DNA from: Guptibacillus hwajinpoensis
Lineage (GTDB): Bacteria > Bacillota > Bacilli > Bacillales > Guptibacillaceae
Direction: 5' to 3'
Assembly: GCF_001039475.1 (NCBI RefSeq)
Contig: NZ_LELK01000004.1
Span: forward strand, 772,981 to 836,980
Length of the DNA stretch: 64,000 bases
A model generated the notes under the pieces. The model saw only the letters and a list, made by a program, of their open reading frames with translations. It made no database searches and had not been told where the DNA came from. Both the position numbers and the translations under genes were made by a program. Positions 17,466-31,262 of this stretch are shown one piece after another. Each line of letters opens with the position of its first letter. Position 1 is the first letter of the stretch.

Positions 17466-17472
17466 TTTCCAT

Positions 17473-17500
17473 TTGATTGGAAGTTCGTTTATGTTATACT
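17473..17500 (+). promoter_or_regulatory. Probable ssrA promoter
   Basis: TTGATT, 16 bases, TATACT, between smpB and tmRNA. It would give a precursor of about 55 bases before the mature 5' end, to be cut by RNase P. Confidence 0.6.
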
Positions 17501-17564
17501 AAAATTACCGAAACACATTACTAAGCTTAACTGCTTACCCGTTTTCGGTTCTCATTTCTTATAT

Positions 17565-17923
17565 GGGGACGTTACGGATTCGACAGGGGTAGGTCGAGCT
17601 TAAGTCGCGAGTCGAGTTGGCGAGCTACGTTAAAAACGCCATGCCTATAACTGGCAAAGAAAACAACAACTTCGCACTAGCAGCGTAAGCTGTTTTGCGG
17701 TTCCTCCCTCCATCGCCCATGTGGTAGGGTAAGGGACTCAACTTAAGTGGGATACGCCAACAATCCACCGTCTGAGGAAAGTTGGAAGAGATTAACCAGA
17801 CTAGCTACAAAGACGCCTGTCGTTAGGCAGAATTGTAGTGAAACAATAATATAACGACTACACTCGTAGAAGCTTAAGTGCCGATACTTCTGGACGTGGG
17901 TTCGACTCCCACCGTCTCCACCA
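17565..17923 (+). ncRNA. ssrA: tmRNA (SsrA)
   Basis: Mature RNA from GGGGACG to the encoded CCA; the 5' GGGGACG pairs with CGTCTCC at 17913-17919 to form the tRNA-like acceptor stem, with TTCGACT as T loop. The tag reading frame GGC...TAA at 17653-17688 encodes GKENNNFALAA, preceded in translation by the Ala carried on tmRNA. It works with SmpB and RNase R encoded just upstream to rescue stalled ribosomes and mark nascent chains for ClpXP-type proteases. Confidence 0.97.
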
Positions 17924-17946
17924 AATACATATTTGGTGGTTTTTTT
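17918..17946 (+). terminator. Terminator of tmRNA
   Basis: CCACCAAAT ACAT ATTTGGTGG followed by seven T; the left arm uses the CCA end of tmRNA. Confidence 0.88.
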
Positions 17947-17962
17947 ATATCTAAAAACTTTC

Positions 17963-18045
17963 TCTATGTGATTGTTGTTCTTAAAAGAAAAAAAGTCACA
18001 CATAGCTAATTCCCGCTTTCAGCAACAATATATACGAAAAGATCA
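17963..18045 (+). repeat. Family A remnant, copy A6
   Basis: GTGATTGTTGTTCTTAAAAG ... CACACATAGCTAATTCCCGCT ... CAGCAACAATATATACGAAAAGATC keeps both end regions of family A while almost the whole GC-rich core is gone. Confidence 0.65.
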
Positions 18046-18058
18046 TACCTAAATGACC

Positions 18059-18091
18059 AAGGATTTGCCACCTCAGGCAAATCCTTTTTTG
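18059..18091 (+). terminator. Orphan terminator-like hairpin
   Basis: AAGGATTTGCC ACCTC AGGCAAATCCTT then T4. No gene lies between it and ssrA, so it may back up the ssrA terminator or be left over from a lost gene. Confidence 0.65.
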
Positions 18092-18213
18092 TATTGATTT
18101 ATCGTGCATCGTTAATAATGAAAGAAGACCTTAACATCTCAACTTCGAAGTCCGATACTTTAAATATAGCGAAACGACATACCCGCAAATGCAATTAACA
18201 AAGGAGTTATCCA

Positions 18214-19155
18214 GTGATATACGGAACTGATCAACAAAGACAGATCTATCTTGTACTAGAATACATAGAAGAGCATTTAGAGGAATCACTGCCTCTCGAA
18301 AGACTCTCCAAAGTTTCAACCTATTCGTCTTTTTATTTTCAAAAGTTGTTCAAAGGCATTGTTGGTGAAACACCAGCTAACTACGTTAAACGACTCCGAA
18401 TCGAGAGAGCTGCCCATTTATTAATCTATGAACAAGGCATACCGATTACAGAGATAGCGTTTATGTGTGGTTTCACATCGCTATCCTATTTTACGTATTC
18501 ATTTAACACCTATTTTCAGGTTAGCCCGAAGAAATGGAGAGAGGGTGCTTATTTAGAGCATTTTTCGAGAGAATATCATCATAGCAAGAAATCTAAACAA
18601 ATGAGCCATAATGTGAAAGATAATAGTAGCAGTAGCACGTATACTACATTTAAGTGGTTGGCGTTAGAGAGAGTGAAAGTAGTTGAATTACCGAACCGCT
18701 CCATTGTGAAAAGGTACAGTAGAGGACCATACACAGAAGGGATCCCGCAAGTTTGGGAAGAATTCTTTCACTACGCCAATGCGAGAGGTTTGCTCAATCA
18801 AGGGATGGTCTTTGGTACCCCAAAGAATAATCCATATATTACACCACCAAGTAAAAGTCGCTATGATTACTGCATTGAAATAAAGAAAGGTAATGCAGAA
18901 GACCTTGAAAATGAGATTGTAACTCAATTTACAGGTGGAAAACACGTTTTGTATGAATTCGCTGAGCCAGTTGATTACGCTGAACGAAACAAATTAATTG
19001 AATGCTATGCAGAGCTGTATAGCTACTGGTTACCGGGAAGTGGTTATAAGTATCTTGGCAATCCCATTGAACTAGTTCAATTTGAACAGCAAAATTCTTC
19101 TTTAACAGTAGTCACGAAAATAAAGGCGATCGCTTTAGCCATAGAGCCAAAATAA
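18214..19155 (+). CDS. AraC-family regulator with GyrI-like effector domain
   Basis: A 313-residue protein. N-terminal double helix-turn-helix of the AraC/XylS type (about 8-105; ESLPLERLSKVSTYSSFYFQ and TEIAFMCGFTSLSYFTYSF), a Ser-rich linker (about 125-140), then an effector-binding domain (about 145-310) of the GyrI/Rob-like fold, which in relatives binds lipophilic cations or drugs. GTG 18214 follows AAGGAG by 7 bases. The membrane protein gene 14 bases downstream is probably its target and operon partner. The ligand is unknown. Confidence 0.88.
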   Translation: MIYGTDQQRQIYLVLEYIEEHLEESLPLERLSKVSTYSSFYFQKLFKGIVGETPANYVKRLRIERAAHLLIYEQGIPITEIAFMCGFTSLSYFTYSFNTYFQVSPKKWREGAYLEHFSREYHHSKKSKQMSHNVKDNSSSSTYTTFKWLALERVKVVELPNRSIVKRYSRGPYTEGIPQVWEEFFHYANARGLLNQGMVFGTPKNNPYITPPSKSRYDYCIEIKKGNAEDLENEIVTQFTGGKHVLYEFAEPVDYAERNKLIECYAELYSYWLPGSGYKYLGNPIELVQFEQQNSSLTVVTKIKAIALAIEPK

Positions 19156-19169
19156 TAGGGGGTAACAAT

Positions 19170-19562
19170 ATGTTAGCAATTAATTATTTAGCAGTACTTA
19201 TAGGGGCAATCGTATACATGATGTACGGAGGAATTTATTATTCTATTTTACTTTCTGATAAAAAAGGAGCTCATAACGAGGAAATTATAAGCAATCAAAG
19301 TAAAGGTTTAGGCAAATATGTTTTCGCTGTCATCATTGCATTTATTAGTTCATTTTTCGTAGCTGTTCTAGTACAAGCAACTGGTTCTGACAACATCCTT
19401 ACGGGAGGTGCTATAGGTTTTGTCATCGGCCTGCTGATCTCAATCGTATATTTTAAAAATCAATTATTCGGGCTGATGTCAACGAGAGCATTTTTGATGG
19501 CTATCGGTGATCACCTTGTTGTTTTCACCTTGCTCGGGCTTATTCATGGGATTATGTCATAA
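19170..19562 (+). CDS. DUF1761-type membrane protein
   Basis: A 130-residue protein with four hydrophobic segments (about 5-25, 50-70, 77-95, 103-128). The pattern of an N-terminal span with a Tyr/Gly-rich region (YMMYGGIYY) followed by three further spans fits the DUF1761 family, whose function is unknown. AATAGGGGG lies before the ATG. Co-transcribed with the AraC-type regulator and closed by a terminator. Confidence 0.75.
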   Translation: MLAINYLAVLIGAIVYMMYGGIYYSILLSDKKGAHNEEIISNQSKGLGKYVFAVIIAFISSFFVAVLVQATGSDNILTGGAIGFVIGLLISIVYFKNQLFGLMSTRAFLMAIGDHLVVFTLLGLIHGIMS

Positions 19563-19566
19563 GTTT

Positions 19567-19596
19567 AGCCACCAAATCATAATTTGGTGGCTTTTG
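19567..19596 (+). terminator. Terminator of the AraC/DUF1761 unit
   Basis: AGCCACCAAAT / ATTTGGTGGCT with a short loop, then TTTTGTTTT. Confidence 0.85.
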
Positions 19597-19623
19597 TTTT
19601 GAAGTTCGCTTCCATTGGTATGT

Positions 19624-20088
19624 TCATACTTTAAAGGAGTAGTAAAGTAACCCAAGTGTCGAAACCGTTAAGAATGATATAAAGGAGGATAGAACAATAA
19701 TAGACTGATTTAACATCGCTTCATTAACCGCTGGCAAGCGACATAGAGAAGGATTATAGACGACTACTCCTAACATCATGCCCATTAGCGCTCCGACTGT
19801 GCCATGGAAGAAGCCGGCCAAAACAGAGTGGAACTTGACGATAGATCCAATTATGACCCCAGACCCACCCCCAATTACAACAACTACACAACTAATGAAT
19901 TCAGCATAATCAGGCAGCAGAAGATAAAGGTGCATTCCAATAGAGAAGTTGAATACACCGCTGTAAGTAGTTGCTACAATCATCCCGAATCGATCACTAA
20001 ATAACTTACGAGATTGAAACATTTTTCTGAATAGTAGCAGGCCTAATAATAAGGTAAATAGCAATGATCCTAATACATAGTGCTCCAT
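19624..20088 (-). CDS. Polytopic membrane protein, 154 residues
   Basis: Family not recognised. Four to five hydrophobic segments (about 5-20, 37-57, 62-83, 91-110, 127-150), Gly-rich in the middle (VVVIGGGSGVIIGSIV and GTVGALMGMMLGVVV). It resembles its neighbour (20104-20496) in size, direction and Gly-rich spans, so the two may form a paired membrane complex. It starts with ATG 15 bases after the neighbour's stop, suggesting one operon. It lies beside the divergent mnx-like genes; a role in that system is only inferred from position. Confidence 0.72.
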   Translation of the reverse strand: MEHYVLGSLLFTLLLGLLLFRKMFQSRKLFSDRFGMIVATTYSGVFNFSIGMHLYLLLPDYAEFISCVVVVIGGGSGVIIGSIVKFHSVLAGFFHGTVGALMGMMLGVVVYNPSLCRLPAVNEAMLNQSIIVLSSFISFLTVSTLGLLYYSFKV

Positions 20089-20103
20089 TTACATTACCTT
20101 CTT

Positions 20104-20496
20104 TTATGAATTTCGTATGGCTAGAAACAAGATAATGAACGATATACCAAATGCTGCTTCGACTAGTCCAATAAATAATGTACTAAAGTTTGCAGATGCT
20201 CCAATCATGGGTGCCATTAATCCCATCGTCATTCCACTTCCATAGCCTGTTAAAAGGGTTTGATAATCAAACATACCCCCGAATAAACTTCCAATAAAAA
20301 TTCCTGTTAAGGTTGAGATAATGGTTATCCAAGTAAAGTGGAAAGGATATTGGTAAATCAAAAGGATACCAGTTGTCATTGCAGCCATTCCACCTATAAT
20401 GGTCGAAATATTCATACCCAGTTGAAAACCAATTAGTTTACGATTTTTATTTACATAATAGTAACTAATAGACATCATTAAGAAATTTCCGTACAA
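20104..20496 (-). CDS. Polytopic membrane protein, about 130-137 residues
   Basis: Family not recognised. About four hydrophobic spans, Gly-rich (STLTGIFIGSLFGGMF and GSGMTMGLMAPMIG). The frame given starts at TTG 20496, but the best Shine-Dalgarno (GGGGGAGGGAG) lies further upstream and points to an ATT codon at 20517; starting there adds a hydrophobic N-terminus (ITILGWIL) that completes the first membrane span. The true start is therefore probably 20517. First gene of a two-gene unit with 19624-20088, divergent from the mnx-like operon. Confidence 0.7.
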   Translation of the reverse strand: MYGNFLMMSISYYYVNKNRKLIGFQLGMNISTIIGGMAAMTTGILLIYQYPFHFTWITIISTLTGIFIGSLFGGMFDYQTLLTGYGSGMTMGLMAPMIGASANFSTLFIGLVEAAFGISFIILFLAIRNS

Positions 20497-20713
20497 AATC
20501 CAACCAAGTATAGTAATGAATATCTCCCTCCCCCATGAAACACGATTTTTTCCTAGAGCAAATCAAAACACCGCATAACGTTATAATATTAAGTTAAACC
20601 TTCGTACATAACCATTACATTAACTTGTGGAATAAGTTGTATTGAAAAAGAATGACATATATGTGAAGAGAATTCGATATATATAGCTGAGGTTAGAATG
20701 ATGGGGGAAGCTT

Positions 20714-21493
20714 ATGAAGCAAAATAAAACGATTCGATTACCGGAGTATACAAAGGAGTTACTCGAAAAACGTGAAAGAGAAGTGATTACAGAAGACCTT
20801 TACAATCTTGCAGATAGTGATGATCAGTTAACATCTCCGACGACTTCAACCACTACAGAAGAAACTAGGCTTTTTATGGAATACATGTCGCTTAGTAATT
20901 TGCAAAATATCGCAAGTACAGATGAATTAAAAGGGAAGTATTTGACTCTTAAGAAGTTTTTTAAGTCGAAACGGAACCAACAGGTTGAAGTTTACTCAAG
21001 ATCTGGTGTCAACGAGAAAATCTACACAGAAGGGAAGGTGAGTGCTATTGGGCGAGATTTTGTAATGCTTACAAATCTAAAAGACCGTATTTGGATTCCA
21101 TATGACTATATTGACAGAGCGAATATTCCGTTTGGTATACCGAATTATTCCAATTCGCATCAACATTATATCTATGACAATGATCTACGGACCAAACTCT
21201 TAAGGAACTTTGGAGAAACGGTTTCAAAACGAGAAGTTTTGCGGCAACAATTCTATGAAGAGACGTTGCAAACCAATCTTAGCTCATGGAAAGGTTCCTG
21301 GGTAGATGTTCACATTAAGGATGGGGCCAAGAAGAAAGGAAGGATTACAAATTCTGAACAAGGAAAGCTTACCCTTTATTCTCAGGTGAAAGATGATGGT
21401 GTGGAAATGCAAAATATACAATTTATTAAAACCCTTCGCTTTTTTCAAGTGACGGCTTTTTTATTTAGAAGAGTACTAAAGGGTAGTGAGTAA
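20714..21493 (+). CDS. Hypothetical protein at the head of the mnx-like operon (possible MnxD position)
   Basis: A 259-residue soluble protein without signal peptide or membrane span. An N-terminal charged helical region (1-60) with a Thr/Ser-rich linker (SPTTSTTTEE) is followed by two beta-rich modules: NQQVEVYSR ... GKVSAIGRDFVMLTNL ... WIPYDYI (about 95-138) and WVDVHIKDGAKKKGRITN ... LTLYSQV ... IQFIKTLRF (about 196-245). The modules resemble small Sm-like barrels and the patterns seen in 21533-22168 and 25890-27049. In Bacillus SG-1 the gene before mnxE is mnxD; whether this is its homologue cannot be verified here. GGGGGAA site before the ATG; first gene of the operon. Confidence 0.7.
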   Translation: MKQNKTIRLPEYTKELLEKREREVITEDLYNLADSDDQLTSPTTSTTTEETRLFMEYMSLSNLQNIASTDELKGKYLTLKKFFKSKRNQQVEVYSRSGVNEKIYTEGKVSAIGRDFVMLTNLKDRIWIPYDYIDRANIPFGIPNYSNSHQHYIYDNDLRTKLLRNFGETVSKREVLRQQFYEETLQTNLSSWKGSWVDVHIKDGAKKKGRITNSEQGKLTLYSQVKDDGVEMQNIQFIKTLRFFQVTAFLFRRVLKGSE

Positions 21494-21532
21494 TGGAATG
21501 AAGAATGAAGCAGTGAAAAGGGAGGTCTGTTT

Positions 21533-21838
21533 GTGGAGAGTAAACGTCATCCAAAACAAGAGGATCGGTTATATAAAGAGTTAAAATCTCATTTGGGGAA
21601 AGAGGTATTGATTATAACTGAATCAGATCAATTGAATTTATTCGGGCAAACGTTTCGACCTATTTTCTGCGGGAAGTTGATAGATGTTTATCGTGGTCAT
21701 ATCGAGTTATTTCCGGTCATTATTAAAATGGTAAATGCACCATTTTTTGAATTTCCGACGCCCCTTTGTGTTCCATTAGAAAAAGTTTCGCAATTCACGT
21801 TGGATTTTGATTGTGACAGACAATTTCCTCTTACTTAA
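21533..21838 (+). CDS. mnxE: MnxE-like subunit of the manganese oxidase complex
   Basis: A 101-residue protein starting at GTG (8 bases after GGGAGG). In Mn-oxidising Bacillus spores MnxE and MnxF are small proteins of about this size that assemble with MnxG into the active Mnx complex. The visible pattern is a beta-rich module (LGKEVLIITESDQLNLFGQTF ... FCGKLIDVYRGHIELFPVII ... CVPLEKVSQFTLDF). The assignment rests on position (two genes of equal length directly before mnxG) and general pattern rather than clear motif identity. No export signal. Cys at 57, 83 and 98 could be metal ligands. Confidence 0.72.
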   Translation: MESKRHPKQEDRLYKELKSHLGKEVLIITESDQLNLFGQTFRPIFCGKLIDVYRGHIELFPVIIKMVNAPFFEFPTPLCVPLEKVSQFTLDFDCDRQFPLT

Positions 21839-21862
21839 ACTAGAGAGGTGGAATGATTTTAA

Positions 21863-22168
21863 GTGCCAAATAATGAAGATTATATTGTGAAGGTTCCTAC
21901 CATAAATGATATACACGATCAAATGTTAATTAAGTACTTTGAAGATGAAGTAGGAAGAAAAGCGATAATCTTATGTTCTTCTTTTCCATTTGTTTTTATA
22001 GGAGTTATTATAGAGGTCATTGATGACTATGTGGTTGTTGATGTAGAGACAACGAGTATTTCTCAATTAGAAGACAGGGACTGGTATATTCATATTCATG
22101 ATATAGAGGTTTTCTATATTGAAGATGGTGAAGGGCCACGAATTCCTGAGTTAAGAGACGGAGATTAA
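21863..22168 (+). CDS. mnxF: MnxF-like subunit of the manganese oxidase complex
   Basis: A 101-residue acidic protein directly before mnxG (19-base gap). Same length and module pattern as the preceding gene (EVGRKAIILCSSFPFVFIGVI ... DYVVVDVETTSIS ... IHIHDIEVFYIED), pointing to an old duplication of mnxE/mnxF. The HIHDIEVFYIEDGEG stretch is rich in His and acidic residues that could bind Mn or Cu. GTG 21863 is preceded by AGAGAGGTGG at about 12 bases, a slightly long spacing. The call rests on position next to mnxG; gene symbol by analogy with Bacillus SG-1. Confidence 0.75.
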   Translation: MPNNEDYIVKVPTINDIHDQMLIKYFEDEVGRKAIILCSSFPFVFIGVIIEVIDDYVVVDVETTSISQLEDRDWYIHIHDIEVFYIEDGEGPRIPELRDGD

Positions 22169-22187
22169 AAATTAGGAGTGGTGAGGA

Positions 22188-25100
22188 ATGAAACGTTGTT
22201 ATCATGTCGTTGCCATTCCCATTCGGATTGTTCTTAATCATTTTGGTGACTACAATCCAAATGGCATGATGTATGTGCTCAAAGAAAATGAATGTAAAGT
22301 AAAAGAATTGGTAGAGAAGCATCCATTTAGTCCAGTCGACTTAGTTCAGCCACTAGTGATTCGTGCGAATGAGGGGGATGAAGTAGAAATCCTTTTTGAA
22401 AACCAACTCCCTTTTGCTACGGGAATGAATTTTCAGGAAGCAGATTATGATGTTCAAACTTCGGATGGGGCGAATGTTGGATTTAACGAGAATACACTAG
22501 TAGATTGCGGCGAACAAACACTGTACCAGATAACCGCCTATCATCAGGGTGTCTATTTTTTCTCGGATTTAGGTAATCCTGCTAGTAGTGATCAGGGATC
22601 AAATATTAACGGATTATTTGGAGCGTTATTTGTTCAATCAAGAGGATCTTCATGGACAGATCCGATAACAGGGGGATGTATTGAAAGCGGAATGTATGCG
22701 GATATCCACCATCCCTTTCTACCTTCTTTTCGCGAATATGCTTGGATATTTCATGATGAAATGCCTACTGTGGATTTAACTGGTAATAAACCTCTCGATC
22801 CTGTTACGAATCAGGAAAGAGAGTCGACTCATGCTATTAACTATCGATACGAACCACTTGAGAATCGGAAAAAACTGATTGACGAAGGAGTGGTATGTCC
22901 AGATTGCGATGGGGAGGAAGTCCACCATGACTCATGGGTGTTTGGAGATCCCGCATCTCCAATTCTAAGAGGGTATGTTGGAGATCCAGCGACGATACGA
23001 ATCGTTCATGGTGGCGTTAAAGAAACTCATGCTTTTCACTACCATGTCCATCAATGGTTTGATGATCCTACAAACCAGGATTCAGAGATCTTTGATTCAC
23101 AGGCAATCAGTCCTCAAACATGGTACGATATTAAGCCATTTTATGGACTAGGAAGTCTACAAGGAGCAATAGGCGATGCGATTATACACTGTCATCTTTA
23201 TCCACATTTTGCTGTTGGTATGTGGGGGATGAATCGAATATTTGACACGCTTCAGGATGGGAGTCAATGCTATCCAAATGGAGAACGGATTGATGCTCTT
23301 CAACCACTACCTGATCGTCCTAGACCCCCTTCTCCGACGAAAAAAAGACCAGGATTCCCTAATTTTATTCCAGGTAAAGTAGGATGCAAGGCACCAAGAC
23401 CACCACTCGGAATTGTTGGTGGAAGAGGTTTAACAGAATTAGAAAAGAATGCTGCGGTGAGAAATCCAAGACCTGGCGCCGTATTTGCCGACCCATGTGC
23501 CGTAGCGGATGCACCAGTTGTGAAAGAGTTTAATATATCAGTTATTCAATTGCCTCTTATCTACAACCGTCAGGGTTGGAATGATCCAAAAGGTAGGATT
23601 TTTGTGAAAGATGAAGATATTGAAGATATATGTGCAGGAAGGAAAGAACCAGAACCACTCATTATTCACATGACAGCAGGAACGTGTATTAGAATTAATT
23701 TCACGAATCGCCTTCCACATGTAGCAGATGGCGATGTTTTTCAGTTAGTTACGCGGACATATGAGGTAGGTATGCATATCCACTTCGTGAAATTTGATGT
23801 ATTGGTAAACGATGGTGCGAATGTGGGATGGAACTATGACTCAAGTGTTTTACCAGGAGAAACAATTAGATACGAATATTTTGCTGATGTTGAATTAAAA
23901 GCATGGTTTTTTCACGACCATTTGTTTGCCAATTATCATCAGCAGCATGGGTTGTTTGGATCAGGCGTTGTTCATCCTAGGTTCACCAAGCTTCTCGATT
24001 CATGTTCAGGCAAAGAAGTTGATAGCGGAGCACAGGTTACTGCGACGCAGCCTCTTATTCCAGATTATCGAGACCTAACATTAATGGTCCATGACTTTGC
24101 ACTTATCTATGATCAAGATGGATGTCCTCTCAATCCACCAGAGTATCCAAGTTCGCCTGATGATCCAGGATTGTTCGGGGTGAATTATAAATGTGAACCA
24201 CTCCAATTTCGTCTAAATAGTCCTGAATGTGATCCTGCTTATTCATTTAGTTCCTTTGTTAATGGTGATCCAGTTACGCCTATTCTTCATTGTTACAAAG
24301 GTGATTCGTTGCGCATTCGTTTATTGCAAGGTGCTCAAGAAGAGTCACATAGCTTTAATATTCATGGACTAAGGTGGAAGACAGAAAGACCTGACGTAGA
24401 ATCACGATTTGATTCTCAACAGCATATTGCCATTTCAGAATCGTTTACATTTGAGACATACGCAAAGAACTCAGGAGATTATTTGTGGACATTTGAAACG
24501 GAGGAGGACTTATGGAATGGGTTGTGGGGCTTAATTCGTGCGTATGACGAAAAAGTTGATTTCCTCATACCACTTCAAGATCGAGACCCACCACCGAAGC
24601 GAACGCAGCCCCTACCTGAATGTACTGGGTGTCCGCCGGCTCCACCGAGTGTGATTGAAAGCGCTGCTCCATCTAATGCACCTTTAAAGCGCTTTGAAAT
24701 TGTCGCTTTTCAAATTCCTATTCTATATAGCCATTTTGGTGAACGTGATCCATTTGGGATTGTATTCGCGTTAGAAAAAGACATGAATGATATTCTAAAA
24801 GGTTATAAGGATCCAGAACCGCTTATTATAAGAGCAAATGTAGGAGACGAGGTTGAAGTTCACTTAACGAGTTTCTTAAATTTTAATCAATTTCCATTTC
24901 TCGATGGTATTTGGCCATATCCACCAGTTAAAGAACAGGCATTCTATCCACCATCGGTTCGAATTTCACTTCATCCTCAGTTAATTGATTACGATATTAA
25001 AACATCTTCTGGAGAAACAGTAGGATTTAATCCAGATCAAACAGCAGGTCCGAATGAAACCGTTACGTATCGGTGGTATGTGGATAACCCAGTTGGTACA

Positions 25101-25838
25101 TGTGGTATGTGGGATATGACCGATATTCGAAATCATCGGTCCCTTGGAACATATGGAGCTTTCATCGCTGAACCAAAAGGAACAAAGTATTATGACCCTT
25201 ATACCCTTCAGCCAGTCAATAGCGGAGCTCAAGTGATCGTAGTAAATCCACTACTTCCTGTTACAAGAGAATTCGTCCTCATTATGTATGACGGTGCAAG
25301 ATTGGTGGATAAATCAAAACAACTAATTGTCGATCCAGTTGATGGAATTCTTCTTCTTGATGAAATCGATGAAGATCTTGTTGATACGTATGATAATGGA
25401 TCGAGAGGGTTTAATTATCGTACTGAGCGTTTGATTAATCGCTATACTAAACGTGCAGTATTGAAGGATTTGTTTAGTTCAAACGTACATGGAGACCCTT
25501 CAACTCCATTGCTTGAAGCCTACAAGGGAGATCCTATTACGATACGATTATTAAATCCTTCGGAAAGAAGACGTGCCCATGGGTTCCACCTTCATGGTCA
25601 CTATTGGAACTCAGATGATACGGATTTATCTTCACAAATTAGGTCATTCTCACCTGGAATCGTAACAGGATTCACTGCTGACTTACCTTTGCATTATGGT
25701 GCTGGTAGTTTCTATAACCTCTCAGGAGATTATATGTATCGTTCTGGCAATATCCGCTGGGATCTCGAACAGGGAATATGGGGGATAATGCGAGTTTATG
25801 ATGCGATACAGGCACACTTACCCCCTTTGGAAAAATAG
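22188..25838 (+). CDS. mnxG: MnxG-type multicopper oxidase (manganese oxidase)
   Basis: A 1216-residue multicopper oxidase; MnxG of marine Bacillus SG-1 has almost exactly this length and oxidises Mn(II) through Mn(III) to Mn(IV) oxide on the spore surface. All four copper motifs are visible: HxxHxH at 281-286 (HAFHYH), the type-1 site HCHLYPHFAVGM at 334-345, HIH at 530-532 and HDH at 576-578. The C-terminal-type motifs come before the N-terminal-type ones, as expected for a large permuted six-cupredoxin protein. Further cupredoxin-like domains follow (SHSFNIHG near 780, AHGFHLHGH near 1110) without a full copper set. No signal peptide, in keeping with assembly from the mother cell. Fourth gene of the operon; AGGAGTGGTGAGG precedes the ATG. 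Confidence 0.93.
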   Translation: MKRCYHVVAIPIRIVLNHFGDYNPNGMMYVLKENECKVKELVEKHPFSPVDLVQPLVIRANEGDEVEILFENQLPFATGMNFQEADYDVQTSDGANVGFNENTLVDCGEQTLYQITAYHQGVYFFSDLGNPASSDQGSNINGLFGALFVQSRGSSWTDPITGGCIESGMYADIHHPFLPSFREYAWIFHDEMPTVDLTGNKPLDPVTNQERESTHAINYRYEPLENRKKLIDEGVVCPDCDGEEVHHDSWVFGDPASPILRGYVGDPATIRIVHGGVKETHAFHYHVHQWFDDPTNQDSEIFDSQAISPQTWYDIKPFYGLGSLQGAIGDAIIHCHLYPHFAVGMWGMNRIFDTLQDGSQCYPNGERIDALQPLPDRPRPPSPTKKRPGFPNFIPGKVGCKAPRPPLGIVGGRGLTELEKNAAVRNPRPGAVFADPCAVADAPVVKEFNISVIQLPLIYNRQGWNDPKGRIFVKDEDIEDICAGRKEPEPLIIHMTAGTCIRINFTNRLPHVADGDVFQLVTRTYEVGMHIHFVKFDVLVNDGANVGWNYDSSVLPGETIRYEYFADVELKAWFFHDHLFANYHQQHGLFGSGVVHPRFTKLLDSCSGKEVDSGAQVTATQPLIPDYRDLTLMVHDFALIYDQDGCPLNPPEYPSSPDDPGLFGVNYKCEPLQFRLNSPECDPAYSFSSFVNGDPVTPILHCYKGDSLRIRLLQGAQEESHSFNIHGLRWKTERPDVESRFDSQQHIAISESFTFETYAKNSGDYLWTFETEEDLWNGLWGLIRAYDEKVDFLIPLQDRDPPPKRTQPLPECTGCPPAPPSVIESAAPSNAPLKRFEIVAFQIPILYSHFGERDPFGIVFALEKDMNDILKGYKDPEPLIIRANVGDEVEVHLTSFLNFNQFPFLDGIWPYPPVKEQAFYPPSVRISLHPQLIDYDIKTSSGETVGFNPDQTAGPNETVTYRWYVDNPVGTCGMWDMTDIRNHRSLGTYGAFIAEPKGTKYYDPYTLQPVNSGAQVIVVNPLLPVTREFVLIMYDGARLVDKSKQLIVDPVDGILLLDEIDEDLVDTYDNGSRGFNYRTERLINRYTKRAVLKDLFSSNVHGDPSTPLLEAYKGDPITIRLLNPSERRRAHGFHLHGHYWNSDDTDLSSQIRSFSPGIVTGFTADLPLHYGAGSFYNLSGDYMYRSGNIRWDLEQGIWGIMRVYDAIQAHLPPLEK

Positions 25839-25889
25839 AGTATACGGCGGTTGTTCTATTTTGGGGAGTGGTAAAGGAGGTCACCTTTT

Positions 25890-26600
25890 TTGGGGAAGAA
25901 AAAGAAAGCAAAGTCAAGACGTTCAAAGGAATGCAAAAAGGAACAATTCCCATCACCAAATAGTTGTTTACCTAAAGATGTTCTAGAAAAACTAGAAGCT
26001 GAGATTAAAGAAGCGAATGAATTACTGTTAGATTTGGCGTTATCCGGAGAAAGGACTCTAGATGAATCGTTCAGTGAAGCGTTTAAAGGGTTAATAGGTC
26101 AGGTTGTAGAGTTGAAATTAAATTGTGAGAACGAATGTGAGGTTCAAGAAGAGGAAGAGGAAGAGGGAGAGGAAGACACTTTAACCGTTACAGGTCGAGT
26201 ATTTCTAGCAGGCACCAACTTTTGTTCATTGAAATCAGATGAAAAAGAACGATTAGTTCCTTATGAAAGTATTTGTTTTATCTATCCTAACAATCGATTT
26301 GCTAAGCCCATTCATGAGCCAGCGCTACTTGATATTGGTCCTCTTTTTCGTAAATGTCTTACAACAGACTTCGGTTCAATTGTCTCTGGTTCACCTGAGT
26401 TAATCCAACTATTCTATGGTTTAGATTTAGCGGTATATTTGTTGCGGTTCATTAATGAAGATCTAGTTGTTCATATAGGAAATAAAAAAAATCAGGGGAT
26501 ATTAAAATGTGTAGACAAAAGTTCACTCGTTCTATGTATAGAAGAAGAGAATCAACTTATTTCGTTTGGTGATCTATGTTTTATTGAATTAAAGAAGTAA
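25890..26600 (+). CDS. Hypothetical protein, last gene of the mnx-like operon
   Basis: A 236-residue protein starting at TTG, 9 bases after AAAGGAGG and 51 bases after mnxG. N-terminal Lys/Arg/Cys stretch (GKKKKAKSRRSKECKKE), a helix (LEKLEAEIKEANELLLDL), then module one (LIGQVVELKLNCENECEV, a run of glutamates at about 87-96, VTGRVFLAGTNFCSLKS ... LVPYESICFIYP) and module two (LVVHIGNKKNQGILKCVDKSSLVLCI ... SFGDLCFIEL). These modules match the pattern of 26648-27049, including the acidic insert and paired Cys. Function unknown; co-transcription with mnxG suggests an accessory or spore-surface structural role. Confidence 0.75.
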   Translation: MGKKKKAKSRRSKECKKEQFPSPNSCLPKDVLEKLEAEIKEANELLLDLALSGERTLDESFSEAFKGLIGQVVELKLNCENECEVQEEEEEEGEEDTLTVTGRVFLAGTNFCSLKSDEKERLVPYESICFIYPNNRFAKPIHEPALLDIGPLFRKCLTTDFGSIVSGSPELIQLFYGLDLAVYLLRFINEDLVVHIGNKKNQGILKCVDKSSLVLCIEEENQLISFGDLCFIELKK

Positions 26601-26606
26601 AAAGTC

Positions 26607-26640
26607 AAAGAAAGTATGCTTAATTAAGCATACTTTCTTT
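26607..26640. terminator. Bidirectional terminator between convergent genes
   Basis: A perfect 34-base palindrome: AAAGAAAGTATGCTTAA and its complement. It serves the mnx-like operon on the plus strand and the 26648-27049 gene on the minus strand. Confidence 0.85.
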
Positions 26641-26647
26641 ATAATCT

Positions 26648-27049
26648 TTATTTGCAGTTGCAATCACAATCGCATCTGCAGCAATTATTAACTTTTATTC
26701 CGCTAATGTTCTTTATTGGAATAATAAATGTGTCTTTTTTATTTACTTCACATTCATCACCTGGGTCAGAATCTACTTTTCTAATCTCTACGTAGTCACT
26801 GCCAACAAAACAAATTTTCGCAATAACCTCTTCACACTCTCCACCACATTCAACTGTTAATTTAACTTCACAGTCAATAAGTTGACGAAGCCGGAAATTC
26901 AATCCACTTTGTAAACCACCTAAACGAACTTTAAATCGATCATCACAAATAAAACGATCGCATTTTGAATGTCTATCGTACCGACTATGGTATTTATCAT
27001 AATAAGGTTTTCTACATTTTGGGCAATTTGAATCATAAGAACAACTCAA
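26648..27049 (-). CDS. Cys-rich, spore-coat-like protein
   Basis: A 133-residue protein of unrecognised family. N-terminus CSYDSNCPKCRKPYYDKYHS with a CxxC pair and many Tyr, Arg and Lys; a beta-rich middle (DCEVKLTVECGGECEEVIAKICFVGSDYVEIRK split over about 59-90) like the modules of 25890-26600; and a C-terminal CCRCDCDCNCK tail. Such Tyr- and Cys-rich composition is typical of cross-linked Bacillus spore coat or exosporium proteins. Convergent with the mnx-like operon. AGGAGG site before the ATG (reading the minus strand). Suggested role: spore outer-layer protein linked to the Mn oxidase. Confidence 0.75.
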   Translation of the reverse strand: MSCSYDSNCPKCRKPYYDKYHSRYDRHSKCDRFICDDRFKVRLGGLQSGLNFRLRQLIDCEVKLTVECGGECEEVIAKICFVGSDYVEIRKVDSDPGDECEVNKKDTFIIPIKNISGIKVNNCCRCDCDCNCK

Positions 27050-27082
27050 TTCTATTCCTCCTCTATTTTTGTTTTATTTATC

Positions 27083-27171
27083 TAGCTAAGTTAGCTCATA
27101 ATGTTGATTGATCGATTTGTCACAACAGGGCGTAAATGAGCCAAAAATCAACACTGTTCATTAACATAGCC
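27083..27171 (-). repeat. Family B dispersed repeat, copy B3 (core deleted)
   Basis: Keeps both ends of family B in reverse orientation: AGCTAAGTTAGCTCATAATG at the left and GGGCGTAAATGAGCC ... ATTAACATAGCC at the right, but the central palindromes are lost. It lies between the two Cys-rich protein genes. Confidence 0.78.
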
Positions 27172-27209
27172 ATTTATTTAAATGGAATCACCTTTATTGA
27201 ATAATAATT

Positions 27210-27425
27210 TTAACGATACTTTCTCCTTGTAGATCTAGGTCTTTTTACAGGTTCGTCAAAGAGTGAAGAGGATCTCCACTTCCTCTTACTTTTAACCTTC
27301 TGATTGGCATGACATAAATCAGCCTGTGGATAAGTGCAAAAGTTGTATTCATCGCAATTGCAATATTCTTCACAAACGCAATACTCATCACACATACAAT
27401 ACTCGCCGTTAGCATGATAATCCAT
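27210..27425 (-). CDS. Small Cys/Tyr-rich protein with basic tail
   Basis: A 71-residue protein. Residues 7-31 repeat the unit (D/E)EYCxC several times (EYCMC, EYCVC, EYCNC), giving nine or so Cys in a short acidic, Tyr-rich stretch; residues 40-71 are strongly basic (KVKSKRKWRSSS ... RPRSTRRKYR). Strong GGGGGG Shine-Dalgarno before the ATG. It matches no family I recognise; the make-up suggests a metal-binding or cross-linked spore-surface protein. It lies between the mnx-like genes and the SCO1 gene, and a shifted frame over the same DNA was set aside for lack of such composition. Confidence 0.65.
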   Translation of the reverse strand: MDYHANGEYCMCDEYCVCEEYCNCDEYNFCTYPQADLCHANQKVKSKRKWRSSSLFDEPVKRPRSTRRKYR

Positions 27426-27530
27426 CTAATACCCCCCAATCTGTTTCACCACTAATAGCTTATGTGAACTTCAATTAGGTGCTTGGTTCATTATCATGAT
27501 TTTAAATAAGTAATTTACAAACAATTGGAT

Positions 27531-27555
27531 AATGAGAATCTATTCTGTTCTCATT
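27531..27555. promoter_or_regulatory. Inverted repeat upstream of the SCO1-type gene
   Basis: AATGAGAA, 9 bases, TTCTCATT: a perfect 8-bp inverted repeat about 46 bases before the ATG at 27602. It is an operator-like site for a dimeric regulator, with some likeness to Fur-family sites (ATAATGAGAAT). The identity of the regulator is unknown. Confidence 0.5.
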
Positions 27556-27601
27556 CACTACAGTTGTTCATACGTTTACTACTAAGGGAGGGGCGGAGCA
27601 A

Positions 27602-28180
27602 ATGAGGAAAATGATTTATTTGTTTCTATTCCTATTAGGGTTTTGCTTAGTTTATTTTTTTTGGCCACAAGATGAATTACCAGTGATCAAAAAGGTTAAT
27701 TCATTTGAATTAATTTCGACCGAAGAAGAGACCTATCAGTTAGATAACTCAAAAGTGAAAATTATAAGCTTTTTTTATACGAATTGTCCGGATATTTGTC
27801 CATTAACTCTCTCTGATATGAAGGAATTGCAAACCACTTTAAAGGAAGAGGGCTTATTCGAGACAGAAGTAGAACTTGTAGCGATTACGCTTGATCCAGA
27901 AGTGGACGATCTTGCAAAAATCAAAGAGTACGCACTTTTATATGATGCGGACGTTCAAGGATGGAAATGGTTATCTGGTTCAAAAGAGAAAATCGAAGAA
28001 GTGACTACTACGTTTAACATGGTTGCTAAGAAGATGGATGATGGCTTTGTAACACATAGTACGAATATGTATTTAGTAGATGGAAAGCAACAAATACGGG
28101 GGATCTATGATATGGCAACAATTAAACAGAATGTTGATAACGATAAAATTATGGAAGATGTTCACGCTTTACTTCAGTAG
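27602..28180 (+). CDS. SCO1/SenC-type copper chaperone (MnxC-like)
   Basis: A 192-residue protein with an N-terminal membrane anchor (about 4-21) and an extracytoplasmic thioredoxin fold. The SCO motif CPDIC (Cys62, Cys66) and the distant His152 (FVTHSTNMYLVDG) form the Cu-binding site used to load copper into oxidases. In Bacillus SG-1 the mnx cluster includes mnxC, a SCO1/thioredoxin-like gene, though it lies upstream of mnxG there. Here it lies downstream in its own unit, behind an inverted repeat, and could load copper into MnxG. It could instead serve cytochrome oxidase, but no oxidase genes are near. Confidence 0.88.
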   Translation: MRKMIYLFLFLLGFCLVYFFWPQDELPVIKKVNSFELISTEEETYQLDNSKVKIISFFYTNCPDICPLTLSDMKELQTTLKEEGLFETEVELVAITLDPEVDDLAKIKEYALLYDADVQGWKWLSGSKEKIEEVTTTFNMVAKKMDDGFVTHSTNMYLVDGKQQIRGIYDMATIKQNVDNDKIMEDVHALLQ

Positions 28181-28189
28181 TAATCGTAA

Positions 28190-28360
28190 CTATTAGAACA
28201 AGTAGATGCTTACGGTTCTTTTGGTGATGTCGATCCGTCTAAATACGACGGATTAATGATTCCAGGTGGAAGGGCACCTGACTATATTCTCTTAAACGAA
28301 CATGTGTCCAATTTGGTTAGACACTACTTTGAGGAGAAAAAAACCTGTAGTCGATTTGCC
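28190..28360 (+). pseudogene. Fragment of a DJ-1/PfpI-family gene, frameshifted
   Basis: Reads DAYGSFGDVDPSKYDGLMIP, then GGRAPDYI and HVSNLVRHYFEEKK, which is the middle of a PfpI/YraA-type protease or deglycase domain. A run of seven A at about 28337-28343 shifts the frame; removing one A restores EEKKPVVDLPH, close to the family's EEKKPVVAICH nucleophile elbow. The start and the rest of the gene are missing, so this is a remnant. It lies between the SCO1 gene and repeat A7. Confidence 0.78.
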
Positions 28361-28375
28361 ACACACCCATTTTCC

Positions 28376-28472
28376 GTGTGGCGGGCGATGAGCCTCATTC
28401 TGCTCCAATCACTGAGTGTGATTTATCTCACTATTTGTTCAAAAAACAACAATCTTTTAGAAAAGAGCCATT
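28376..28472 (-). repeat. Family A copy A7, partial
   Basis: Has GTGGCGGGCGATGAGCCTCATTCTGCTCCAATCACTGAGTG (in two parts) and the right end AACAATCTTTTAGAAAAGAGCC; the left half is lost. It may have taken part in truncating the PfpI gene beside it. Confidence 0.75.
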
Positions 28473-28482
28473 AAGATAAACG

Positions 28483-28516
28483 AAGAAACCCCTGGCGTGA
28501 AGTCCAGGGGTTTCTT
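28483..28516. terminator. Terminator of the 28515-29051 gene, symmetrical
   Basis: AAGAAACCCCTGG / CCAGGGGTTTCTT, 13-bp perfect stem, overlapping the stop of the minus-strand gene by a base or two. Confidence 0.82.
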
Positions 28517-29051
28517 ATGGATATTTTGTTTGCCCAATAGCTGAAATAACCGATCCAACAGCTTGAATCCAGCTTCCGACTACATTTAGTTCTTGCCCTT
28601 CTTTACCTTGAAGTTCTTTAATGCCTGATATTGATTGTAGGGAGTTACCAATAGCCTGTAATAAGTTTCCGTAGATTGAGTAGAGTGCACTTGTTGAACG
28701 CTCCCCACCTAACGCATCCGCAAGGGAGACACCCCCACCGAGCGCTTGAAGCCAGTTTCCATCAATATTTAATATTTGTTTCACATCGTTAGTAAAGTCG
28801 ATTAATATACCAGTAATGACAGTGGAGTTACCAACAGCCTGAATCTGATTCCCTAATTTATCTAGCGTTTCAGTTTCTATTGTATCGGCAATTAGAGCAT
28901 TGCCTGTTCCCTGCATAACGTTACCGATTAAGTTAAGGCTATCAAGGAGGTCTGTGCTCAGTTCTTTTATCGGCGTGCTTCCAATTGCTGATAAAATGGT
29001 TCCGATTGCCTGAACCCAAGAACCAAATACTGCTTTTACTTCATTATCCAT
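28515..29051 (-). CDS. Repetitive protein (DUF6944-like)
   Basis: A 178-residue protein built of degenerate repeats around a (G)xWxQAxG(xxxxA) unit: GSWVQAIGTILSAIG near the N-terminus, GNQIQAVGN, GNWLQALGG, GNLLQAIGNSLQ and GSWIQAVGSVISAIG at the C-terminus. It lacks Cys and a signal peptide and has amphipathic helices. It matches the Bacillus DUF6944-type repetitive proteins, of unknown function. The near-identical first and last repeats suggest a closed or paired structure. Monocistronic with its own terminator. Confidence 0.75.
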   Translation of the reverse strand: MDNEVKAVFGSWVQAIGTILSAIGSTPIKELSTDLLDSLNLIGNVMQGTGNALIADTIETETLDKLGNQIQAVGNSTVITGILIDFTNDVKQILNIDGNWLQALGGGVSLADALGGERSTSALYSIYGNLLQAIGNSLQSISGIKELQGKEGQELNVVGSWIQAVGSVISAIGQTKYP

Positions 29052-29135
29052 ACCGAATCGCCTACTCTATAGTCGTCCTATAGTATTCTATACAAACGAT
29101 AAGCGATTGGTTAATTAAAACTTATATCATTTTTT

Positions 29136-29334
29136 AAGGCTTTTTTCGTATACATCTTGCTATAAGAGTAGGGGGATTTCCGCTCGAGGATGCTCCCTTT
29201 CCGCGGGGCGGGACACTTGAGCCTCCTCGTCGCTCACGCTCCTGCGGGGTCTCACCTGTCCCGCTAGTCCCGCAGGAGTCGAACATCCTTCCGCTCCAAT
29301 AAGCTAAGTGTGTTCTTTATTAAAAAGTTCCTTT
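29136..29334 (-). repeat. Family A copy A8
   Basis: Left end AAGGCTTTTTTCGTATACAT, core TTTCCGCTCGAGGATGCTCC ... GTCGAACATCCTTCCGCTCC, right end AAAAAGTTCC decayed. Like A2 it has GCGGGACACTTGAG. It abuts the end of the MFS gene. Confidence 0.85.
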
Positions 29335-29339
29335 ATTGA

Positions 29340-30542
29340 TTACCCTGCTTTCACATTTACAATTTCAGAAGTATTGCTTCGACGGTACTTTGAGAAGAAC
29401 GTTATCGTGATGGTAAGTGATACTACCCCAAAAACGATCGCCATTGCTTGTAAGCCAATTAAGTCTAGCATCAATCCTGTGAGTAAAAGAACAGCCTGGA
29501 AGATGATCCGGTCAAGCATATTTCGAAACGAGAAGAATCGACCGTGATATTCTTTTGGAACTCTTGTTTGAAAGATGGTCGCAGCGGTTGGGAAGAAACA
29601 TCCGACAGAGAAACCAAACGTGACAAATGCGATGATTGCTAACACTGGACTGGACGCAAAAAATAATAAGAGCTGTGATAATCCGATGATAAATGAGAAA
29701 AGGAATAAGATCGTATAAGGTGACATGTGCTTCGATAATCGCTTAACTGTGAACGCGCCAATCATGAATGAAAGACCTTCTGCTGTGTAGATCCAGCTTT
29801 TTATTAACGAACTGTCTTGAATTTCACTAATATTAATAACGATTAAATTGAAGCCACCGATAAATAATAACGGCACCATTGTCATGATAAGTGTCATCGT
29901 TACGATCGGCAGCTGCTTAACGATCGGAAATAGATTTTTAAACCCACCGCGATTGTTCGAAGCGCTTTGCTTCTGATCTTGATCTTCATCAATTTGAATG
30001 AAGAATGTCATAATAACTAAACATAAGTAAGCTGCTAATGAAACAACATACATCATCGATAACGACATCATAACGAGAAAAATACCTGCAACAGCTGTCC
30101 CGAGGATTCGTGACAATGTTGCTACATTCATGTGTACACCGTTCATTTCCAATAGTTCATGATCTTTCACAACAAGCGGAATCGCAGCCTGTAAAGCAGG
30201 GAAGTAGAAAGCGGCAGATACTTGAATCATGACAAGAAACACCACCATCCATAACACTGAATCAGTTTGGATCGCAATTAACATAAAAACGACACTAATT
30301 GTTCGGGCGAAACCTGCTACAAGCATGACCGTTTTCTTCTTATGCTGATCAGTCACCCTTCCTGCAAGCGGTCCTATCGCGACCCCTGCTAATAACCCTG
30401 CAGCCAAAATCACAGATTTCATAAAGTCAGATGGAACCTTTTCCTGCATAAATTCAAGATTACCTATAATTCCGAGCCATAACCCTAGACCTGCCACAAA
30501 TTCTCCAATAAGCAAAATCCATACATTTTTATTTCTCCACAT
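29340..30542 (-). CDS. MFS transporter (drug/siderophore exporter type)
   Basis: A 400-residue polytopic protein with about 12 membrane spans and a central cytoplasmic loop (about 190-205, QIDEDQDQKQSA). The early loop motif GRVTDQHKKKTVM between spans 2 and 3 matches the MFS motif A (GxLaDrxGrkxxl), and the layout resembles the EntS/MFS_3 exporters. Substrate unknown. The start at 30542 (MWRNKNVW) has AAGGTAG upstream; the longer frame to 30575 was rejected because its extra residues are charged and lack a ribosome site. Confidence 0.85.
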   Translation of the reverse strand: MWRNKNVWILLIGEFVAGLGLWLGIIGNLEFMQEKVPSDFMKSVILAAGLLAGVAIGPLAGRVTDQHKKKTVMLVAGFARTISVVFMLIAIQTDSVLWMVVFLVMIQVSAAFYFPALQAAIPLVVKDHELLEMNGVHMNVATLSRILGTAVAGIFLVMMSLSMMYVVSLAAYLCLVIMTFFIQIDEDQDQKQSASNNRGGFKNLFPIVKQLPIVTMTLIMTMVPLLFIGGFNLIVINISEIQDSSLIKSWIYTAEGLSFMIGAFTVKRLSKHMSPYTILFLFSFIIGLSQLLLFFASSPVLAIIAFVTFGFSVGCFFPTAATIFQTRVPKEYHGRFFSFRNMLDRIIFQAVLLLTGLMLDLIGLQAMAIVFGVVSLTITITFFSKYRRSNTSEIVNVKAG

Positions 30543-30670
30543 TGTTTCACTACCTTGATCTTTTTTTATTATCATACCACGAACAGTAATCGTCTTTTAT
30601 GCGATTGTTTATTGGATAGTGGTATGGTGTCCTATAGAGTGGGCAAGCTAAGACTAAGGAGGTGAAGGGG

Positions 30671-30829
30671 ATGGCATTGGATGTATTGTGTGAAGTTGCA
30701 AACTGTGTCCACAACCGTAACGGCCAGAAATGCGGTGCTGATGAAATATTCGTTGTTAGCCATAAAGGAAAACAAGCTAGCAATAGTGAAGAAACGGATT
30801 GTAAGACGTTCGAACCTGGAACCTTATAA
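30671..30829 (+). CDS. DUF1540-type small Cys-rich protein
   Basis: A 52-residue protein behind a strong AAGGAGGTGA site. Cys7, Cys12, Cys21 and Cys44 have the spacing of the DUF1540 domain (LCEVANCVHNRNGQKCGADEI ... ETDCKTFE), a likely zinc-binding fold common in spore formers and of unknown function. It stands alone, divergent from the MFS gene, with a terminator 67 bases after the stop. Confidence 0.87.
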   Translation: MALDVLCEVANCVHNRNGQKCGADEIFVVSHKGKQASNSEETDCKTFEPGTL

Positions 30830-30895
30830 TTCGAAAGCAGCACACCTGATGGCTTCTTCATCTTCTCGATAGCGTGATTCAAATGATATAAGTAA

Positions 30896-30928
30896 AAGCC
30901 GGTACCTATGGGGACCGGCTTGTTTGTT
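30896..30928 (+). terminator. Terminator of the DUF1540 gene
   Basis: AAGCCGGT / ACCGGCTT with a 10-base loop, then GTTTGTT. Confidence 0.75.
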
Positions 30929-31095
30929 ATTTCTCTAACAACTTTTTTAGATTTCTATAATCGTTAGTCACAGATTTTTGTACCATTTTCTTCATAAGCG
31001 GTTTTGCGAGCTTAAATAAGTTGCCAGGATTTCCTTCTACAAAAGCTGTAACCTCTGCTCCATTTCTACAAGTTCAACTACACGTGTAACGGTTA
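30927..31095 (-). pseudogene. C-terminal remnant of an SRPBCC (polyketide-cyclase-like) gene
   Basis: Minus-strand reading gives GAEVTAFVEGNPGNLFKLAK, then PLMKKMVQKSVTNDYRNL and KKLLEK to a TAA at 30929-30927, the C-terminal helix of the SRPBCC ligand-binding fold. Upstream, TVTRVVEL is in another frame, so there is at least one frameshift, and the N-terminal two thirds are absent. The remainder to 31262 holds the ilvD leader. Confidence 0.6.
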
Positions 31096-31166
31096 TGGTG
31101 AAAGTACTCTTTATACAATCGCATACATGTAATTATTGGTTGTGAAATAAAATTTCTGATAATTGT

Positions 31167-31195
31167 TTGCGTTAACGTGTGAAAACTAGTATCAT
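31167..31195 (+). promoter_or_regulatory. Probable ilvD promoter
   Basis: TTGCGT, 17 bases, TATCAT; about 68 bases before the chosen start. No T-box leader was seen. Confidence 0.5.
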
Positions 31196-31262
31196 CAAAG
31201 AATATAAATTTTGAATTGAGTAAATTATCTAATTTCATATGCGACTTGGAAGGGTGATTGGA

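Follow-up and report, generated by a model that had tools for sequence, protein, structure and literature searches.

A 64,000-nucleotide stretch of the Guptibacillus hwajinpoensis genome (contig NZ_LELK01000004.1, positions 772,981 to 836,980; hereafter the window, whose own numbering is used below) was analyzed. Its block at 19.6–28.2 kb is very probably a complete, rearranged locus for the spore Mn(II) oxidase (mnx), in which two genes outside the seven named ones, X and Y, are accessory parts of the ordinary machine and not additions peculiar to this host. Mn(II)-oxidizing spores are a model for biogenic manganese oxides. The mnx locus is itself of a known kind; the added value is in the comparative part, namely two conserved genes beyond the named seven, their predicted MnxE/MnxF fold, and an apparent double permutation of one of them. 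For the comparisons, named genomes were scanned with a ten-sequence MnxG alignment, and the best 80 of 148 confirmed stretches gave 78 loci, including that of Bacillus sp. SG-1 (L099); 65 of these were at least 23 kb long, and the other 13 were shorter. In addition, 150 relatives of the host were searched (G numbers; G000–G013 belong to the host's genus), and the window genes were mapped by hidden Markov model (HMM) onto the 78 named loci and 24 loci of relatives, some of them identical places (L numbers).

The original prediction for this stretch had described a 1216-residue multicopper oxidase with copper motifs and had read the genes around it as mnx genes. All of the open reading frames (ORFs) that it listed were found where it placed them, and both statements held. 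Residues 2–1215 of MnxG aligned with MnxG of Bacillus sp. PL-12 (PDB 9bxa_A) at 1969 bits, a score that leaves no room for a chance effect, whereas the next PDB match, a copper oxidase, scored 34 bits. MnxE and MnxF of the window likewise matched the subunits of the PL-12 complex. MnxG carried Pfam Cu-oxidase_3 and Cu-oxidase_2 matches, and its copper motifs (H281-x-x-H284-x-H286-x-H288, H334-C335-H336...H340...M345, H530-x-H532, and H576-x-H578) were invariant across 10 aligned MnxG proteins. These residues, which we take from the motifs to be copper ligands, paired with identical residues in 9bxa_A except at position 340, where 9bxa_A has an alanine because the solved protein is an H340A mutant. 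These results support the mnx identity of the block, which by sequence appears to hold the genes of a Bacillus-type MnxEFG manganese oxidase.

If the manganese link came by homology only, MnxG might instead be a spore-coat multicopper oxidase for another substrate, of the laccase or bilirubin-oxidase type. The NCBIfam MnxG model NF041487 (1894 positions) gave some ground for this, since the window protein scored 275.9 bits, far below the cut-off of 3100. However, that model fits a different, longer protein likewise called MnxG, which we presume to be from Pseudomonas, and the window protein matched PL-12 MnxG over practically its whole length, has the copper motifs, and is accompanied by both partner subunits, so we consider an oxidase for another substrate highly improbable. 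An unrelated coat oxidase was considered as well and rejected. PMC5622069 describes PL-12 MnxG with an alternating MnxE3F3 hexamer as oxidizing Mn(II) and Mn(III), gives mnxE, mnxF, and mnxG as the minimum set, and reports copper bound by MnxE and MnxF. Compared with this MnxE3F3G complex (PDB 9bxa), the window has the three subunits in common and copper motifs that line up residue for residue, whereas the sequences have diverged.

The mnx locus of SG-1 was then compared with the block gene by gene. The names mnxA to mnxG are those that we take to belong to the SG-1 series. In SG-1 (NZ_ABCF01000025.1), the order was mnxA(U2)> B(U1)> C(SCO)> D> E> F> G> X> Y<, where > and < mark the strand. By arithmetic from a primer position quoted in PMC3039467, the SG-1 database fragment starts about 358 nt before the mnxA frame; because of this start and the gene order, the seven named genes mnxA–G correspond to U2, U1, SCO, the 259-aa gene, E, F, and G. 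Orthologues of mnxA, mnxB, mnxC, and mnxD were all present in the window block, and identities to SG-1 over the aligned parts were 55% for A, 31% for B, 39% for C, 55% for D, 63% for E, 54% for F, 37% for X, and 47% for Y. The search against the Mnx proteins of the two reference strains that the original prediction had proposed thus found PL-12 matches for E, F, and G and SG-1 counterparts for A–G, X, and Y. The mnxA and mnxB products were also distant paralogues of each other (hhalign, 99.7%).

The window order was mnxB< mnxA< mnxD> E> F> G> X> Y< mnxC>, with mnxBA divergent from mnxDEFG-X, and the remaining two genomes of the genus with mnx genes (L049 and L050) had it as well, as did L123. 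All seven genes plus X and Y were thus common to the window and SG-1, and both had the core arrangement mnxDEFG-X> Y<, whereas in the window, mnxA and mnxB were inverted and divergent and mnxC had moved downstream of Y. The one-strand order mnxA-B-C-D-E-F-G was absent from the window; the classic order is no strict defining trait, because order varies widely in the family.

This comparison also bears on the proposal that the gene set goes beyond the classic mnxA–G, with a SCO1 gene and new partners. That proposal was not supported, since the SCO1 gene corresponds to mnxC, and SG-1 likewise has X and Y after mnxG. As candidates for new genes, the SCO1 gene was rejected because its position and homology in SG-1 identify it as mnxC, and the 259-aa gene was rejected because it is mnxD. 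What sets the block apart from SG-1 is the order and strand of its genes. The range given for the locus left mnxB and mnxA outside, just beyond its left end. A host-specific enlargement of the mnx system by novel partners would agree with an order and strands unlike those of SG-1 and with a 71-aa Cys-rich ORF that had a similar ORF in only one of the 24 loci of relatives (L025; 45% over 51 aa). The other genes, however, also occur in the majority of the 78 named loci (X in 68, Y in 63, and mnxC in 47) and in SG-1, whose copies already refute the idea as far as X, Y, and SCO1 are concerned, and we regard such an enlargement as exceedingly unlikely. Of the two Cys-rich proteins that had been pointed out, both ORFs exist; the 133-aa Y is conserved, but support for the 71-aa ORF is weak.

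In many Bacillales genera, mnxG is found together with X and Y, which are conserved cluster parts outside the seven named genes. In the 65 long named loci, the gene counts were G 65, F 65, E 63, X 58, Y 55, D 55, A 52, B 44, and C 42, and the 13 shorter loci added X 10 times and Y eight times. X was kept even in stretches without any of mnxA–D, that is, in five E-F-G-X-Y loci and one E-F-G-X locus; mnxABC lay elsewhere in the genome in G063 and G100, and A–D of the E-F-G-X(-Y) loci may likewise lie elsewhere. Among the 150 relatives, mnxG was found in 21 (20 strong, one of them split into two frames, and one partial). X matches of at most 8.8e-40 occurred in 20 of these 21 genomes, the exception being G052, whereas 15 of the 129 mnxG-less relatives had weak matches only, the best at 1.5e-6. 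Y was detected in 19 of the 21 mnxG genomes and in two of the 129 others (G102, 4.4e-11; G096, 8e-4), with a search model built from unpermuted Y, so that permuted Y is harder to detect. The sequences to either side of the block align between G003 and the mnx-less G011, and the block differs between them as one unit: mnxC–mnxB with X and Y (L026, about 5.67–13.99 kb) stands against about 70 bases in G011. A second, smaller difference lies outside the block (about 1.1 versus 0.13 kb).

In principle, X and Y could be spore-coat genes with no relation to mnxG that lie beside it by chance. Such an explanation would fit the position of Y on the opposite strand, the absence of X from seven and of Y from 10 of the 65 long named loci, and the weak barrel matches in 15 mnxG-less genomes. 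On the other hand, many rearrangements have left X and Y beside E-F-G, including in the five long loci whose stretch has none of mnxA–D; among the 150 genomes searched, only those with mnxG had full X matches; and the block comes or goes whole between G003 and G011. A chance neighborhood is therefore unlikely, and X and Y are better read as accessory parts of the oxidase system. Two observations weigh against this reading. According to PMC5622069, an mnxDEFG construct yielded active PL-12 enzyme, and A, B, C, X, and Y are therefore dispensable for activity in Escherichia coli. In addition, mnxABC also occurred without mnxG in G021 (L048), which had a weak match to another oxidase only, and in G053 (L141), which had no match at all; mnxA-B-C in such genomes may mean that the three genes also work for other copper enzymes. 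In the open-access literature searched, no paper was found joining MnxG, MnxE, MnxF, and mnxC, and none pairing mnxH, mnxI, or mnxG with one another.

The fold of MnxD, MnxE, MnxF, X, and Y was examined by profile comparison, and that of X and Y also by structure prediction. In hhalign, D and X were linked at 99.9% (E 1e-32), X and Y at 97.1%, E and F at 85.7%, D and Y at 73%, and E and X at 46%, and control comparisons of the five proteins with mnxA, mnxB, or SCO reached at most 5.5%. Common descent of D, X, and Y is thus well supported, and that of E with F is moderately supported. The AlphaFold2 model of Y (40-sequence alignment) had a mean predicted local distance difference test (pLDDT) score of 72.5 and a predicted template modeling (pTM) score of 0.55. 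Residues 51–90 and 111–120 had mean pLDDT values above 90, the loop between them had 73–78, and the Cys/His-rich part before the barrel was of low confidence. In Foldseek, the best PDB match of the Y model was MnxF (9bxa_E), with MnxE ninth; about two thirds of the 50 matches listed were Sm-like (Hfq, SmAP, LSm, and Gemin), the others including retroviral integrase and ribosome-assembly chains. The X model (55 sequences; mean pLDDT 86.7 and pTM 0.74) showed two five-strand barrels plus helices. Its best matches were the viral protein 2x4j (1e-4) and the 30S assembly complex chain 7afi_X, presumably RimP, and Hfq chains made up most of the 50 listed. X and Y are therefore predicted to form small five-stranded barrels matching solved Sm-like chains.

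Several results count against a tie of this family to MnxE and MnxF. The hhalign values were 16% for F-Y, 8% for D-E, 6% for E-Y, 4% for F-X, and 2% for D-F, so D or Y was not tied to E or F; because the control pairs reach 5.5%, D-E, E-Y, F-X, and D-F are indistinguishable from controls. The Foldseek E value of Y with MnxF was modest (5.5e-3), no Y match reached 1e-3 among the 50 listed, and 9bxa was absent from the 50 matches listed for the X model. Placing D, E, F, X, and Y in one group is therefore an argument from fold. Compared with known Sm/LSm/Hfq small beta-barrels, the predicted fold of Y and of both X halves is alike, and the PL-12 MnxEF hexamer is like many Sm-like rings; the differences are a gene context of metal oxidation on spores, the tandem form of X, and no sign of RNA binding. 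In scans against Pfam and NCBIfam, D, E, X, Y, the 71-aa ORF, and mnxA could be assigned to no family (mnxB was left out of both scans), and MnxF had subthreshold, chance-like matches only. Pfam scans of individual members pointed weakly to an Sm-like fold for X (RimP C-terminal domain in 29 of 55, best 2e-8; LSM in two, Hfq in one, and Spore_GerQ in three), and Y gave scattered matches, each in one to three of 40 members. In the host genome, a search with Y returned itself only, and a search with X returned itself, mnxD, and one weak place (0.026). No paper linking MnxE with Hfq or Sm-like proteins was found in the open-access literature search.

The order of the two barrel halves in Y was not the same in all genomes. 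With HMMs of the two halves, 55 of 71 Y proteins had the usual order (window Y included), 12 had the reverse order, and four were doubtful; three of the doubtful ones (L055, L062, and L075) were judged by eye to be permuted, giving a total of 15 (L051–L056, L060, L062, L075, L100, L102, L107, and L118; L116 and L119). Permuted Y proteins have the C-terminal barrel half, a Cys/His-rich linker, and then the N-terminal half. When the 15 permuted sequences were rotated and scored against the unpermuted barrel model, the score rose in 13 (by 0.3 to 20.4 bits) and fell in two (by 0.1 and 2.2 bits), whereas the reverse rotation of five direct Y proteins cost 26 to 54 bits in all five. On a FastTree tree of 79 MnxG proteins, 64 with known Y state, two changes were needed (mean of shuffled states 13.8; none of 500 as low), the permutation being counted on the MnxG tree and not on a tree of Y. 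One permuted branch comprised Sutcliffiella, Cytobacillus, Metabacillus, Oceanobacillus, and Priestia; the other comprised Geomicrobium and A. pseudalcaliphilus, and its fork with the direct L126 was poorly separated. We give an even chance to the broader view that the Mn oxidase is built on a Sm/Hfq-like barrel family (MnxD, E, F, X, and Y) for structural and metal-handling use, and that Y is its metal-loading member, with a His/Cys-rich arm on a barrel that was circularly permuted twice (arm-Nhalf-Chalf to Chalf-arm-Nhalf, with new ends between strands 1 and 2). The double permutation would suggest that the place of Y in the assembly depends on barrel and arm, not on the end that bears the arm, and the natural circular permutants are test cases at hand.

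These observations can be placed in a possible mechanism. Late in sporulation, the mother cell would make MnxG with a ring of alternating MnxE and MnxF (E3F3). MnxC, which is probably a membrane-anchored SCO1-type protein, and the membrane proteins MnxA and MnxB may supply or reduce copper for MnxG, which would oxidize Mn(II) to Mn(III)/Mn(IV) and pass the electrons to O2. Sm-like barrels of the MnxE/MnxF fold would be carried by X and Y and, on grounds of homology, also by MnxD (two in X, probably two in MnxD, and one in Y). These three proteins would most probably sit on or around the E3F3G ring and hold it in the spore outer layer, where the His/Cys-rich part of Y may bind metal (Cu or Mn). 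Their conservation beside mnxG and their predicted fold make X and Y candidates for fixing the enzyme to the spore and for metal loading.

Because the host genome carries CotE and Spo0A, as expected of a spore-former, it is reasonable to expect that the host makes Mn-oxidizing spores. Among the matches listed in the open-access literature search, neither Pseudalkalibacillus nor hwajinpoensis was named with Mn oxide. Upstream regions were scanned with a sigma-K pattern (AC, 15–17 nt, CATANNNTA), a consensus that we assume to apply. Over all loci, perfect sites were found upstream of D in 12 of 72 (1.0 expected), A in eight of 69 (0.7), X in 11 of 77 (0.8), Y in 15 of 71 (0.7), and C in three of 51 (0.2), and upstream of the operon-internal genes E in one of 80 (0.6), F in none of 84 (1.0), and B in none of 57 (0.2); the expectations come from first-order random sequences, and related loci are not independent. 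Twelve of the 15 Y loci with a perfect site have permuted Y. Other results of the scan are less favorable. In the window, none of the eight genes scanned was preceded by a perfect site, and D, A, Y, and C also lacked a one-mismatch site; the sole one-mismatch match among the five genes scanned for such sites lay upstream of X, within the end of mnxG. With at most one mismatch allowed, sites over all loci showed little excess over chance (D 25 of 72 versus 21.0, A 24 of 69 versus 19.7, X 22 of 77 versus 17.0, Y 27 of 71 versus 22.8, and C eight of 51 versus 10.1). SG-1 had no perfect site either.

The features of the block are listed in Table 1. Judging from orthologue lengths, mnxA probably starts 24–27 nt further upstream. 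The mnxE and mnxF genes lie directly upstream of mnxG, with gaps of 24 nt (mnxE–mnxF) and 19 nt (mnxF–mnxG); the mnxG–X gap is 51 nt, and a ribosome-binding-like stretch precedes X. The inverted repeat between X and Y has the longest stem among eight terminator-like sites in the region, a number that is no excess over shuffled sequences (mean 6.5, SD 2.4). MnxC has an N-terminal membrane segment, a CPDIC motif, and H152, as judged by a motif and hydropathy check. Directly after mnxC, positions 28202–28342 hold what is left of a DJ-1/PfpI-like gene (47 of some 183 residues, 62–70% identity; family named by eye), and full-length genes of this kind, also named by eye, are present in G003, G011, and G013.

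Table 1. Genes and other features of the mnx block, in window coordinates
Feature	Position	Strand	Basis or remark
mnxB (U1), 154-aa membrane protein	19624..20088	-	kept beside mnx genes; second gene of the SG-1 series; hydropathy segments
mnxA (U2), about 130–139-aa membrane protein	20104..20496	-	first gene of the SG-1 series
mnxD, 259 aa	20714..21493	+	55% identity to the SG-1 protein at the mnxD position; homologous to most of X
mnxE, 101 aa	21533..21838	+	phmmer to 9bxa_B MnxE, 3.6e-33
mnxF, 101 aa	21863..22168	+	phmmer to 9bxa_E MnxF, 3e-30
mnxG, 1216-aa multicopper oxidase, copper motifs intact	22188..25838	+	phmmer to 9bxa_A MnxG, 1969 bits
X, 236 aa, two Sm-like barrels and helices (predicted)	25890..26600	+	last gene of the mnxDEFG-X series; not among the seven named mnx genes
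Inverted repeat between X and Y, terminator-like on both strands	26606..26641		15 and 16 pairs on the two strands
Y, 133 aa, Cys/His-rich N-terminal part and one Sm-like barrel, unpermuted (predicted)	26648..27049	-	not among the seven named mnx genes
71-aa Cys-rich ORF, doubtful gene	27210..27425	-	similar ORF in 1 of 24 loci
mnxC, 192-aa SCO1/SenC-type protein	27602..28180	+	Pfam PF02630 SCO1-SenC, 1e-27; 39% identity to the SG-1 protein at the mnxC position

Some further variants of the locus were seen. Extra mnxG copies were present at L045, L046/L113, L066, L069, L076, L084, and L103, and the stretches at L045 and L046/L113 had E-F-G only, without D, X, and Y. At L041 (G126), mnxG lay in two frames (residues 1–166 and 166–1216), an apparent frameshift or sequencing error. 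At L142 (G097), mnxA and mnxB stood together without mnxC beside them, and at L048, mnxA-B-C adjoined a gene resembling catalase by eye. Loci were also found in Bhargavaea (L088 and L104) and Filibacter (L067), genera that are non-spore-forming or doubtful spore-formers.

Within the host's genus, mnxG was found in three of 14 genomes, and the closest mnx-bearing relatives were G002 (MnxG 95% identical) and G003, both of this genus. The window region from smpB/tmRNA to ilvD (17465–31239) is a variable slot within the genus, and the smpB–ilvD distance ranged from about 2.4 to 21.8 kb across the 14 genomes. In G012 (L150) and G005 (L151), the same slot held an insert with integrase-like and restriction/methylase-like genes, as judged by eye. 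L150 also carried a second copy of the tmRNA end (117 bases, 98%) some 10.5 kb away from the first, as would be seen at an integration site.

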